Shown here: positions 53,265-64,000 of the stretch, piece after piece
Layout: each line of letters starts with the position of its first letter
How positions within the stretch are numbered: the first letter of the stretch is position 1
NCBI GenBank assembly: GCA_003116995.1
Contig: BDSL01000137.1
Coordinates: 156,427-220,426 of the forward strand
DNA: 64,000 bases
Source: Yamagishiella unicocca
Taxonomy: Eukaryota; Chlorophyta; Chlorophyceae; Chlamydomonadales; Volvocaceae
Direction: 5' to 3'
Program-made: the position numbers and the translations under genes
The notes under the pieces: generated by a model
Told to the model about the DNA's origin: nothing
What the model saw: only the letters and a program-made list of their open reading frames with translations
Databases searched by the model: none

Positions 53265-53418
53265 ATGGCTCGCACTAAGCAAACTGCTCGCAAGTCTACC
53301 GGCGGCAAGGCGCCCCGTAAGCAGCTGGCCACCAAGGCCGCTCGTAAGACCCCGGCCACCGGGGGCGTTAAGAAGCCTCATCGCTACCGGCCAGGCACAG
53401 GTGCGCTTCGCAGAATCT
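53265..53418 (+). pseudogene. Histone H3, interrupted after residue 45
   Basis: The frame encodes a perfect algal H3 N-terminus from [20 protein letters not shown] to [10 protein letters not shown] (45 residues, 53265-53399), including the modifiable Lys 4, 9 and 14. The next codons read G-A-L-R-R-I where H3 has V-A-L-R-E-I, then similarity ends and the frame runs into unrelated sequence. The histone-fold part is absent from the rest of the window. Two readings are possible: truncation by the element that follows, or a 5' splice donor (ACAG|GTGCGC at 53400/53401) leading to an exon beyond 64 kb. The first is simpler, as such H3 genes are normally intronless. Confidence 0.9.
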
Positions 53419-53469
53419 CTTATATATGCCGCAATTGCCACCACATGCCTCCTGGCTCTTCTCTAGCTG

Positions 53470-55939
53470 TCATGCATTTGCGACATCATTCTTTGCTCCA
53501 GCCCATTGACACTTCCTACTCTCTCCCCTGTCTCCTCTGGACTGGATTTTCCGCCTACTTTTCTTCAATATTAAATCCTCTTCGTTGCCGTGCTCCAAAT
53601 CAAGCCGCAGCCACTGCTGCATTGACATGTAATTAATCACTAGATCATTTGCAAACCCGCCTTTCTTCTCCCACTGCTTTATTTCAACACCCCTAATGAC
53701 CAGGTCCATAACCCCCCGTACGCGTGACATGGCAGTATACAAATGCCCGGGCTCCCAGTACTCGTCCATGCACACCACCGCATCATCCAAAGTCAAGCTC
53801 TGTGCACGATGCACAGTCAAGGCATACCCCAGCATCAATGGCAATTGGAGGCGATTGTCAAGCAGTTCACCTGTAATAGCCTCCATGCAATACATGGTAG
53901 GCTTACAGACTACTTCTCTCTCCTCTCCACCCACAGTAAACAAAACAACTGGCCACAAATAATCGACCTTGCATTTCCCCATGACCTCTTCCAGAACTCC
54001 TGCACCCATTTTCTTCCACCGCTCATCTCGACGCCACTCCATGGAACCATCCAACCTGTCCTCAACGAAACGACATACTTTCCCCCGACTTCCTGTTGGC
54101 ACACTCCCAATGGGCTTAGATGCAATCACCAACGCACCACGGCGCAAATGTAGCTGTGGTAGCCCAAGTGCACTGTCCTCTCCGACCCCTCCCGTGGCCA
54201 ACATCCCAGGAAACGAACAGGTGACCCCATCCACACCCTTGTATACATTTTCGGTTCCTCCCAAGGCCTCCAGTGCTGCAAGGTTCGCACTTGCAGCTGT
54301 AGCCTTATGCCCAGTTAGTAATACCCCCTTCCCATGCCGGGTTCCTGTGCCAGTCCATGCATCCCTTAGCAATGTCATCCACGATGCGGGCATCGCAGTG
54401 CCGCGTCGGCGCGTTGCCAGCCGTTGAAGCTCTAAGAAAAAAATGTTGTCGTGTGCGTGCCTATGGCTGAAGTCCGGCATGAGAACATGTGTAAACGCCA
54501 AATCTACCCAGCAGTCAGCGGTCCAAATTAGACCTGCTAACCTACGTACACCAGTGGCCATTAATTCCCGCACGGGCCCCAACTGAAAGCCGTCCATTAG
54601 CAGAATTATCTGGATTCCGCCAAAGGGCTCATCCAGCCGCCCACGAGCTCTGGCTATCAAGTCGCTCTCAAGCTGAAACAGCCTTCCGGACGACATTGCA
54701 GCTTCATCAAGAACGATCGTCATGATGGGGCCTACTGCCTCCCTCAACCGTGCCTGTCCAGACGCACGCAATTTTGTCCAAATCTGAAGCGCAGTCGCAT
54801 TTCCATACCCAACCCCTGCCACGCTTTGAAGCGTACGCCCATTCACATTCAACGCACTCATCCCAGACACGCCGCAAAAAACGACCTTCCCACTTTCCTC
54901 ACAGTCCTCACCGTGGATAGCCTGCAAGGTACGCAGCAAGCCACGACGTGCAAATGTTGACTTCCCGGAACCGGCACACCCTTGAATCAACAAATTGCCA
55001 CCTTCCTCCAGCCTTGCCTGCAGCCCTCCGACATCCACAGATCCAACTACGTTCCCTGCACGAGCACATTACGGCAAGGTAAAATCAATGTTAGCCGTGC
55101 ATGTTGCCTACTTCAGCCCTAGTTAGTACCCCAGACAATTCTGCTAAAGAGCATACACAGAGCTATGTATCTACCAGGACCAGGCCGTCGACTTACATGT
55201 TACTGGTGGCTTCAACGCTGCTCTATCCTGGGCCCTCTTCATTGCCCTAACCTTCTTGGTGGATAGACGCCCTGCAGCCAGTTGCATGAGAGTACAATGT
55301 TCAGTACAGAAAAACAACGGCTTCTTCCCCAGTACGGATTACAGAACTCATTTCGGAACGTACAATGCATGTCTTCCCTCTTTACTCTTCGTAGTCAGGC
55401 ATCCACATGCCGCCCCTACTAACCCTCAAAATGCCCATCCACGGCAGCATCACTGTTGATGTCGTCCTCTCCCATCTCGATCCATGTCTTAAATGTTTTT
55501 GGCATTCTCTGGATGGAGGACGAATGTCGAGTCTGGCTCAGCGCTCTTGACTCTCCTTCGTACCCATCTGGCATTACCAAGACTGGCCATCCGTCGAGCA
55601 CCCCAATTGATGCCTGACGAAGCCCGCGTACTATGCGACCATAGGCACTTGCGTCTAAATACTCAGGTCCCGCTTTGTAAATTGTTCGCAGTATGCGGGC
55701 AGCGCGCTGCTGCGCCTCCTGGGGCGTTTTTCCTGGAACATCCACATAGCGGCTGAAAATTGGTACTGACTTCTGATCCGCAGCAGGAAGTTCGTGCCAA
55801 GCACGTAAGACCGACTCTGACACGAACCGGATGCAAAGATTGCAACAGTAACAGCCACCTTTATCGTGTGCGCGCTCCGAAATTCTGAAATAGTGCTGCG
55901 GGACATCCGTGCAGGCATTCACCATCCCAATAACGTAGC
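53470..55939 (-). CDS. PIF1-like SF1 helicase of the element
   Basis: The main exon (55055-53470, starting in phase 1) encodes a 5'-3' type superfamily-1B helicase: Walker [12 protein letters not shown], Walker [11 protein letters not shown], motif III-like [11 protein letters not shown], and the C-terminal pair [18 protein letters not shown] and [10 protein letters not shown]. The tail is basic. Two upstream exons are likely: one ending at 55197 ([17 protein letters not shown], Cys/His-containing) and one starting at 55939 ([29 protein letters not shown]), also phase 1. The 55.2-55.45 kb junction is unresolved, and no start codon is evident, so the gene may continue from the recombinase gene upstream. 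Related helicases occur in Helitrons and some other elements, but no Rep/HUH motif is seen. Confidence 0.75.
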
Positions 55940-56044
55940 CTGCAGGCAATCAGCAATGGACACATGGACGGATTCAGCTTATCGCTTACACACATGCACT
56001 ATGCGGGTGTGGCCTGGTCTCGTACATGCTAGCTAGAATATTCC

Positions 56045-61764: not shown

Positions 61765-62059
61765 CTGTGCAGAACCAACCACAATCAAGAACATATGCTC
61801 AAGAGACAACCCTATCAACTAAATAGCCACGAAGTCACTAAAGGAAATGCACCTAATCTGCTTGTTCACGGGTGAAGATGAACCTGCTGAACCTGCCATT
61901 CCCTTTACCTAACAGGCATATTCTATACAAGAACAGTAAGCAGGCGCAACTACATGATATGAACATATACCAGTTCTTATCGGCCTGTACGAGTAAAGCA
62001 TCTTCCCGTACTTTACACAACCGTCCCTATGGAAACCTCCATCCACATTTAAAGTAGTT

Positions 62060-62680
62060 ACGCCTTGAATTTTCGACCACATTGTCGCCACATACATTAC
62101 GTCTTCGAAGAGCGGACACAAGGCACAACATTCACATACCCCTCCACACTCACCAATGCAGACATAGGCTTCTTTCCATCGCTGGTACAGCATCCACCTT
62201 CTCCGCATCGTAAACGGGTTCAGCTCTGCACCATCCAGTGCAATGGTGTACCCATGCGCGCGCTGATCAGAATGATAGTGACCTCGTCGCCAGGAATCAC
62301 GCACTCCTGTCCAGCTTCAGTGGACAGCTGCAGGGTCGCACACCATTTCTCCGTGGGTATGAACGTTGCAAGCAGCCCCGCCGAATGGCCGTTGCGACGT
62401 CATACTGGGCACCGTCCAGAGCGCCAAGGGGCGCCGACCAGCACCAGCACGTTCACCTTGTTCTGCCCTACCACGGCATCCAAAGGCACTTAGCTGTATC
62501 GCCGTCTACCATTGCGCCTTGTCCCGCTCCTGGGACTCAAGCCGTCGGACCCAGCCACGGATCAGGGTTGAGAGCCCAATGTCCCAGGTAGACTCAGCAA
62601 CGGAAAGCAGCTGCTTAACCGTGAACTCCTTTAGCGTGGCACCGTCGTCATAAGCCGCTGCCAGCAACGCCTTCTACAAA
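62060..62680 (-). pseudogene. Frame-broken coding remnant in the element
   Basis: On the minus strand protein-like segments appear in succession but in different frames: KALLAAAYDDGATLKEFTVK to WVRRLESQERDKAQW (62675-62508), KVNVLVLVGAP (~62450), GALDGAQYDVATAIRRG (~62420), KWCATLQLSTEAGQECVIPG and EVTIILISARMG (~62350-62255), ELNPFTMRRRWMLYQRWKEA (~62215). At least three frame changes occur in 300 bp without splice-like junctions. It is probably an eroded gene; the family is not recognised. Confidence 0.4.
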
Positions 62681-64000
62681 ATTTTGAATAAACTCACAGT
62701 CAGTGTGAACACCATCGTTCAACAAAAGCATTCCAGTCGTAATCCTTGGTAGCAAGTCCCCTTACCTTCATGTCGGCCATAGCCCAGGCTGGCTGGTGTC
62801 GAACTCCGACCCGTTCACCTCACCCCCAAAGCCGCCGCTGCAGGGATGCATGCATTTACGTTGCCGGGCATGTTGTAGACCCTCATGCTGTCCATTGCAG
62901 ACGCCACACTCCAGCATATGACCCAGACGTCCTAGCCGCACGCGTGTGCAACGCAAACGTTCCTGGCATCAATCTCCTGTGAGCAACCACAAGCACCATC
63001 ATGTCAAACTTTCACGCCAGCGCTGCACTGGTCCTAACAACACACGACACACCTTTCGGATCCCCGGCATATACCGTACCGAGCCCGGCCTGCATTTGGG
63101 AGCATCCCTCACATCTCGGCAAGGTTCTGTTTCCCGACTAGCAGGTAACGCGAACCACTGCGCTGGCACTGGCGCTACCGCTGCCAGTAACCGCAACAGC
63201 GCGAGCTTGGTAAGCTGACTTTGGCGCCATCTTTGCTACGATACAATCTGCTTGTAAATTGCACCCACTACCACCAGCATGATTTCAAGACTACTCCAAG
63301 CAAGGGAACCACCCGCATATATACGACTTCCGTACCGCCCGCTCAAACCCACCATTTGCACGACGAACATTCCTTCCCAAAATGTTCCCTCAGTGCATCT
63401 CACCATTACCATTAACCTGGCAAATGCGGACTAATTTCCATTCCACCTTCAGTGTGCAACACTCCTTGCCGACCACATTTCATCAACCGCCCACCACCTC
63501 CACGGGGATGAGCCGTTTGCTCGCACTAGCTCGTTGCACTGCATTTCGCATGCTGATTCCCAACACATGAGCAAACTTAACATTTCCTACGTGCCCAAAC
63601 CACCACCACTCAAATGCGTCCAATAATGACAATTTATGTACTTGCAGCCAGTCTTCAACCACACATAATATAACAAAACTACAATAAAACTTCCTGGAAA
63701 CGCATCCCATTCACCCGGTTTGTTCCAGCGCCAGCACAGTCTGGCAAGCTCAAATTACCTGTGATTCTATACGCTAAAGTTAAATATCAATATTCACCAA
63801 ATCCACACCCGCACACATGGGCAACGTACTTCAACATGTCAGAGATAGACGTCGCGCCCGCCTGCACTTTTTGCATCACCCGCTTCCTTCAACCCTAACC
63901 AACACATTCTTCTTTCTTCTCATACTCGCATTCACATTTCGCTACCCATTACAATGCCAACTCTGGACCAGCACTTCCAAACGAGTGAGCCTCTTTCCAC
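62681..64000. other. Element interior, no supported gene
   Basis: Short open frames only on both strands. Some minus-strand stretches (near 63000-63200) are codable but have no motif or splice support. No H3 fold-encoding sequence and no terminal repeat is seen before the window ends. Confidence 0.4.

Follow-up and report, generated by a model that had tools for sequence, protein, structure and literature searches.

What is the DNA, more than 10 kb long, that follows the first exon of a histone H3 gene in the green alga Yamagishiella unicocca, and how did it come to lie there? The window analyzed here, 64,000 nucleotides in length, comprises the final 64,000 bases of contig BDSL01000137.1 (C137; positions 156,427 to 220,426, assembly GCA_003116995.1), and the contig ends before any H3 exon 2 is reached. 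On comparison with the rest of the genome (133.4 Mb searched, in 1,415 contigs), we favor the reading, at a probability of about 0.55, that this DNA is an undescribed element that encodes a tyrosine recombinase (YR) together with a PIF1-like helicase, resides in H3 introns, and spreads by one-ended copying at the junction between the intron and exon 2.

A preliminary description of the locus had placed a PIF1-like helicase and a tyrosine recombinase beyond H3 exon 1, over more than 10 kb and both antisense to H3, and this is borne out by Pfam, predicted fold, and conserved motifs. Its claim that the H3 gene is broken near codons 45-51 does not stand. As an intact H3 gene on contig C115 has the identical exon 1 protein (45 codons), then a 257-bp intron, and then exon 2, the supposed break is the normal exon 1 end with its splice donor; the element lies in the intron, and the coding sequence is uninterrupted there. 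Judging from the copies described below, the junction actually struck appears to be the start of exon 2, not the end of exon 1. The principal features, in window coordinates, are:

53265 to 53400, plus strand: histone H3 exon 1, 45 codons and one base, followed by the splice donor GT at 53401.
53401 to 53575, plus strand: 5' part of the H3 intron, ending ..TTCAATATTAAA, recognized by similarity to C115 and C15.
53576 to 64000, minus strand: YR-helicase element, truncated on its left and cut off by the end of the contig, with 99.7% BLAST identity to C15 over 10,450 bp.
53575 to 55068, minus strand: PIF1-like helicase (Pfam PIF1, E 4.7e-14), its C-terminal 12 residues missing in the window.
56045 to 58053, minus strand: tyrosine recombinase frame, recognized by fold and conserved motifs, split by a 1-nt shift at 57264-57268 but open in C6.
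61909 to 63220, minus strand: probable upstream YR exons with an N-terminal Cys/His domain, the frames damaged in the window.
63780 to 63792: 13-bp TTAAATATCAATA, also present at the C15 left junction; a possible crossover core or templated filler.
63793 to 64000: start of the ~0.9-kb right end, which is flush to H3 exon 2 in C15, C6, and C114.

A search of the genome with the YR protein returned seven loci, four at 90-100% identity (C15, C137, C6, and C114) and three at 31-41% (C92, C220, and C53). When the flanks were read, all four loci of the window family proved to lie in H3 genes, in one orientation and with YR antisense to H3, and eight H3 loci with an intact junction exist, a pattern expected of homing. 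Both H3 exons are held by C15 and C6, exon 2 by C114, and exon 1 by C137. Because C114 and C137 both stop at contig ends, these copies represent three or four insertions. The helicase search found C15, C137, C92, and C220, as well as three short matches on C15 and C115, each of which is H3 intron read on the antisense strand. In the window, too, the helicase frame ends in antisense H3 intron (its final 34 residues, 53470-53574), because the window copy is cut at 53575/53576, just short of the natural C terminus seen in C15.

The helicase belongs to the Pfam PIF1 family by a score of 53 bits against a cut-off of 25.9; the C15 copy and the 803-aa C92 copy match the same family, the latter at 84.2 bits. 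Only helicase- and NTPase-type domains were found by Pfam in the helicase frames, and PHROGs returned helicase families and one weak ATPase match. A match to phage helicases (195 records; the top-ranked place, at 26.8%, spans 76% of the query) was set aside as a clue to origin, as it shows the helicase superfamily only. A viral origin was also rejected, the viral-contig scan having given seven pattern matches and no relative.

The YR of neither C6 nor C220 matched any Pfam family at E ≤ 1. Sequence searches of solved structures gave 0 matches and, in a second search, two matches with E above 4; a search of PHROGs gave nothing. A model of the 669-aa protein, built on a 10-sequence alignment (mean pLDDT 63), had Cre as its first match in a structure search, and residues 103-418 of the model align with Cre, Xer, integrases, and topoisomerase IB, as a YR fold would. 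This predicted fold supports the assignment of the element protein as a divergent tyrosine recombinase. Invariant in the alignment are R266, K306, A417-H418-R419, G451, G452, and Y466, with R420 nearly so; judged by eye against the R-K-H-R-(H/W)-Y active site, the (S/R)AHR motif may stand for the usual HxxR. Relatives are few: among the candidates sharing most words that were scored from a collection of 5.8 billion (5,532 at first, 7,992 with a profile), seven proteins were found in the first search and nine with the profile, and Pleodorina starrii is the source of three among the matches listed. These Pleodorina proteins, the only relatives with a named source, and the intron present in most H3 genes, as in Volvox, suit a volvocine host. 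In a 12-row tree the window YR groups with P0001-P0004 and P0015 (98/98), the sole starred branch of nine inner branches, and C92 stands apart on a long branch.

The YR gene had been called intron-rich. For the YR domain this is not so, since in the C6 copy it is a single open frame of 669 aa from stop to stop. Upstream in C6 are two open frames, 255 and 104 aa long, each with a weak match to P0004, a YR protein of Pleodorina (E 0.009 and 0.017 in a search against six proteins), which suggests that upstream exons with an N-terminal domain are likely and that the gene is probably multi-exon. A conserved Cys occurs in the domain before YR (window 61909-63220; Pleodorina P0004, P0015, and P0016), and an H..x..LDG.xLELVYD-like motif is seen in P0004, P0016, and the window. 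By eye this domain resembles an OTU protease (cysteine protease), a resemblance that has no Pfam support.

Whether the two genes co-occur in fixed order elsewhere, a check put forward in the preliminary description, is answered by the second family (C92/C220), which is ~31% identical and has YR and helicase adjacent in the same order; in C15, C137, C92, and C220 alike, the helicase lies downstream of YR on the same strand. C92 and C220, which match at 99.8% over 10 kb, may be a single locus. In this family (C92:419254-434241, C220:1-10000) a 697-aa YR frame lies directly upstream of the 803-aa helicase frame, and the C220 helicase frame is shorter than that of C92, at 452 aa. The stretch is AT-richer (40-51% GC), ~14 kb or more in length, and has a strand skew as in the window element. 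A third YR relative (C53:343876-344400), 41% identical over the matched part, has a frame open for 480 aa and no helicase match. For both the public YR P0002 and the public helicase P0008, the longest contig listed is 7,123 bp, which suggests, but does not prove, that one 7.1-kb contig carries both, probably side by side there too.

The copies of the window family are nearly identical to each other. The alignment of C15 with C6, which runs to exon 2, has no substitution and two gap columns in 9,325, and that of C15 with C114 has no substitution and four gap columns in 6,650; C15 aligned with the window is likewise free of substitutions over 7,785 columns, to ~61.3 kb (the 61 gap columns are nearly all from unequal cuts, 7,784 vs 7,725 letters). 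In a four-copy comparison over 8.2 kb, no substitution was found among C15, C6, and C114; C137 has seven (five adjacent) and 28 indel events, crowded toward the contig end, and C114 has 15 indel events, mostly toward its own contig end. Because of the contig end and the single-base differences crowding there, the window frames past ~61 kb are unreliable. The host genes are another matter: the exon 2 sequences of C15, C6, and C114 differ mutually at 20-22 of 269 bases, and from the unrelated H3 on C115 by 14-24, and to the left of the element C6 and C15 are 93.4% identical in the H4 stretch and 91.8% in the H3 exon 1 stretch. An identical element between differing exons and flanks points to a single very recent source copied into different H3 genes, and the sequences show its very recent arrival in no fewer than three separate H3 genes. 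Segmental duplication of a whole H3 gene behind all copies was considered and rejected for C15, C6, and C114, in which exon 2 and the C6 left flanks are 7-8% apart and the element is identical; such a duplication is likely behind the left flank shared by C15 and C137.

In every copy that retains its right end, the join to H3 lies at the opening bases of exon 2, and the right terminus ..AAACTTTACTTATCG, directly followed by exon 2, is common to C15, C6-703k, and C114. This terminus is one base off the ordinary H3 intron end ACTTTACTTATAG (compare C1 and C6-1394k); therefore, it is probably in part a donor H3 intron with a disabled acceptor, which fits donor-gene copying better than a self-contained element end.

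The left ends, on the other hand, vary. The distance from left junction to exon 2 is 11.7 kb in C15 and 9.3 kb in C6, where the helicase is lacking; the window copy is cut 557 bp inside the element end of C15, and in C6-764k and C6-834k no more than the final 110 bp of the element is present. A closely similar sister gene, C6-808k, has no element tail and keeps its AG, giving the empty state as ..CCTTCCTTACTTTACTTACAG followed by TTGCC. At the left joint of 764k, TAC is common to host and element, a microhomology. Compared with sister introns, the intron stumps end 0 (C15), ~6 (764k/834k), 13 (703k), and 14 bp (the 829k orphan) before exon 2.

C15 is the most elaborate copy. It consists of H3 exon 1, a 140-bp intron ending CCAG, 14,298 bp of inserted DNA, and exon 2, and its outer flanks, when joined, give a full 136-aa H3 reading frame. 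Within the insert are the element, 557 bp that include a piece of a retroelement, and two partial H4/H3-exon 1 copies that are 99% identical to the window's region. As the window flank differs from these two copies by one and four substitutions, with nine gap columns each, the window copy was not the exact donor for C15. Copying in C15 appears, from this arrangement, to have run past the element into the donor H4/H3 genes and to have re-started. The retroelement piece at the left end (C15 ~741387-741686, ~300 bp) is 76-77% like a coding retroelement-like repeat, which occurs in at least 39 further places, on contigs that have high numbers and are apparently small. Neither a search for tRNAs at the left end of C15 nor a search of the repeat against Rfam gave a match. 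The 13-bp TTAAATATCAATA forms an exact direct repeat between the C15 left junction and a point 0.9 kb from exon 2, 10,783 bp apart. Such a match was seen in 0/2000 simulated right ends and 0/300 simulated elements, and among the matches listed the motif has eight exact genome sites, five within the element.

The state of the junction was then read across the genome, in 16 near-complete exon 2 loci and 19 exon 1 rows (98-100% identical to the 45-aa H3 exon 1); these counts exclude three exon-1 rows that are divergent and five exon-2 rows that are either short or divergent. Two of the 16 exon 2 loci are intronless (C50). The AG acceptor is kept at eight of the 14 intron-bearing loci (C9, C44, C2, C6-808k, C1, C6-1430k, C6-1394k, and C115; those of C44 and C2 were read by eye from printed ends) and lost at six (C15, C6-713k, C114, C6-764k, C6-834k, and C37). 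The exon 1 donor GT is intact in all 17 read. At C37 (833314-833577), an H3 gene without a YR match, the AG acceptor and the first exon-2 codons are replaced, a scar at the same junction, with a tail-like stretch of 40 bp at 85%; C1 has a tail of 16 bp, and C6-1394k an older tail (91.7% over 72 bp). At C6-829k (C6:829725-830100) an H3 exon 1 stands as an orphan; its intron breaks off 14 bp short of where exon 2 is expected and continues into unrelated GC-rich DNA (376 bp read).

Taken as a record of movement, these junctions look like homing-like spread by one-ended copying from junction breaks, rather than cut-and-paste or circle integration. In the favored reading, a break would arise in an H3 gene where the intron meets exon 2, and its exon-2 end would invade an element-bearing H3 gene and prime DNA synthesis leftward through the element; copying would halt at a variable point, and the new end would be joined to the intron stump. 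Break repair primed from exon 2 would fit the fixed right and variable left borders and the stumps within 0-14 bp, and it may equally account for the microhomology at the left joint, the foreign filler, and the dragged-along donor genes. The least certain steps are those given to the element's own proteins. The recombinase may make or fix the break, a guess made because it is the only DNA-breaking enzyme recognized, and the helicase, being PIF1-like, may power the extended copying; in yeast, PIF1 is known to drive the synthesis step of break-induced replication. In its fullest form, which we put forward tentatively, the element would be a nuclear homing element in which a YR instead of an endonuclease breaks the start of H3 exon 2 and the element's own PIF1-like helicase copies it by break-induced synthesis, with copies that are one-ended, of any length, and able to drag donor genes along.

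Several observations weigh against this reading. None of the three contigs of the more distant relatives (C92, C220, and C53) is among the H3 matches. C114 and C137, both at contig ends, may be halves of one locus, and 764k and 834k, which share their entire intron, may be one event. The YR is the sole nuclease recognized in the element; its frame is split by a 1-nt frameshift in the window and C15, and in C114 it has a stop codon near the contig end. The model of the YR is partly weak (mean pLDDT 63); its 413-419 region, which includes the AHR motif, is below pLDDT 50, so that the catalytic assignment depends on conservation of the sequence. As the right end resembles ordinary H3 intron ends, the real border of the element may be located further inward. 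The 13-bp repeat remains beyond chance and unexplained by copy-in unless it is filler, which it may be, because the C15 left region holds a foreign retroelement piece.

Part of this evidence also feeds a rival in which the element landed once in an H3 intron and ordinary break repair or gene conversion then copied it without its proteins being involved. H3 is multicopy and nearly identical in coding sequence, the right end resembles an H3 intron end with a changed acceptor, host genes are included in the copied DNA of C15, and a whole intron is common to 764k and 834k, all of which would suit such passive spread. However, conversion tracts should stop randomly within exon 2, whereas divergence begins at exon 2 base 8 in C15 vs C6 and in C15 vs C114, at base 38 in C6 vs C114, and at base 2 in 764k vs 834k, and the same spot is damaged in H3 genes that contain hardly any element sequence or none, namely the 829k orphan and C37, with its 40-bp, 85% tail-like stretch. 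We hold passive spread to be rather doubtful.

The 13-bp repeat would suit ordinary YR integration 0.9 kb from exon 2, and the core was our first reading of the integration site, now kept as a rival only: an excised circle would cross over at TTAAATATCAATA in H3 introns, as Cryptons do, and left ends would be deleted later. The exactness of the repeat over 10,783 bp and the TTAAA(T) that precedes three different joins speak for it, but in each of the three copies extending to exon 2 the 0.9 kb outside the supposed right core travels along with the element, and the first ~0.8 kb of this stretch occurs at no other place among the matches listed. Moreover, later deletion does not explain why the stumps of C6 and 764k/834k are nearly intact though the element is truncated, and the repeat may be filler, since a foreign retroelement piece sits in the C15 left region. 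Circle integration appears unlikely. Less likely still is that a long-read assembler joined an identical element to different H3 genes. The evidence does consist of assembled contigs only, H3 genes are repeats, and two of the four copies (C137 and C114) end contigs with clustered single-base differences; yet the element lies mid-contig in C15 (1.43 Mb) and C6 (2.09 Mb), these two differ in exon 1, exon 2, and the left junction, and the 110-bp insertions are short enough for any long read to contain. The H3 junction, which the preliminary description had allowed might be a misassembly, thus recurs inside these two long contigs.

How does the element compare with known systems? As in Cryptons, a tyrosine recombinase is encoded in a DNA element in which no reverse transcriptase was found. 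Some oomycete Cryptons carry an additional C48 peptidase, according to the Crypton paper (PMC3212892), in the main text of which the word helicase has 0 occurrences. The present element differs in its PIF1 helicase partner, in a YR without a Pfam match, and in its variable left ends. The GCR1_C DNA-binding domain, which defines CryptonF, had no Pfam match in the C6 or C220 YR, a result that informs on CryptonF only. Crypton groups other than CryptonF lack this domain. Starships are large fungal elements led by a long YR protein, and the likeness lies in a large eukaryotic element with such a protein; here there is a helicase partner and a length of 11-12 kb, and the YR matched neither DUF3435 (the Starship captain) nor another Pfam YR family at E up to 1, which leaves room for remote kinship.

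Helitrons also encode a PIF1-like helicase and are known to have one precise and one variable end. They insert between A and T, whereas the junction here is AG/TC in H3, and a YR stands in place of an HUH/Rep domain. As the preliminary description had stated, no HUH nuclease is visible: the domain scan of C6:706900-713400, which covered frames ≥85 aa, found reverse transcriptase, HUH, or endonuclease Pfam domains in 0/32 frames, and no Rep/HUH fused to the helicase was found by Pfam on the helicase frames. The reverse transcriptase and RNase H of DIRS and Ngaro were absent from the frames scanned (≥85 aa), and no such Pfam domain was found in the main genes or in seven plus-strand frames of the window at 53.7-59.0 kb. 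Site-specific LINEs of the R1/R2 type have one fixed and one truncated end at one site of a repeated gene, much like the fixed right and truncated left ends seen here in a multicopy gene, but no reverse transcriptase was found in the element, and its genes are on the strand unable to serve as priming RNA; a LINE-like copy would require RNA of the opposite strand. Site-directed spread to a conserved coding junction, by break-repair copying from a filled allele or paralogue, characterizes homing elements and mobile introns. The element here also sits at a conserved coding junction; unlike homing elements, it has no homing-endonuclease domain that was found, its copies are one-ended and partial, and it spreads between paralogues.

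An element with a YR and a PIF1-type helicase is apparently undescribed. The idea of an undescribed class in green algae holds as far as the tests ran, namely for the co-occurrence of the two genes and the lack of a Pfam YR family. No YR-PIF1 or H3-targeting element appeared in the titles and abstract openings of the best-ranked literature (the best 1-20 of up to 280 papers), a sample largely outside subscription papers and preprints, and absence from the VIA list was not counted as exclusion of a family. Eukaryotic YR elements are poorly understood, and as zero-substitution copies, partial copies, and empty sites occur here in one genome, the mode of movement can be read from junctions. If copy-in is true, it would link transposition to break-induced replication and would be a new way to colonize a vital multigene family, in which the splice acceptors of single H3 copies are knocked out; the H3 target is conserved enough for many hosts.

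The remaining features of the window locus are:

52689 to 53000, minus strand: histone H4 gene, divergent partner of H3, an open frame of 103 aa from MSGRGKGG.
55419 to 55949, minus strand: 176-aa open frame between YR and helicase, without a Pfam domain; the stretch is also present in the C6 copy.
59340 to 59725: 34-bp minisatellite within the element.
61105 to 61442: 169-bp tandem duplication within the element.

The H4 gene and H3 exon 1 thus stand back to back. Window 52022-53575 matches C15 at 99.2%, a close copy of the H4 region inside the C15 insertion; the H3 intron stretch 53401-53575 is 96.7% identical to its C15 copies over 181 bp, and the intact H3 gene on C115 shares 90.9% identity with window 53125-53551. 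The stretch 53001-64000 has a constant strong GC skew (-0.17 to -0.36) at 50-62% GC, and window 1-39000 is 55-77% GC with many tandem repeats, followed by ~50-61% GC from 39 kb on.

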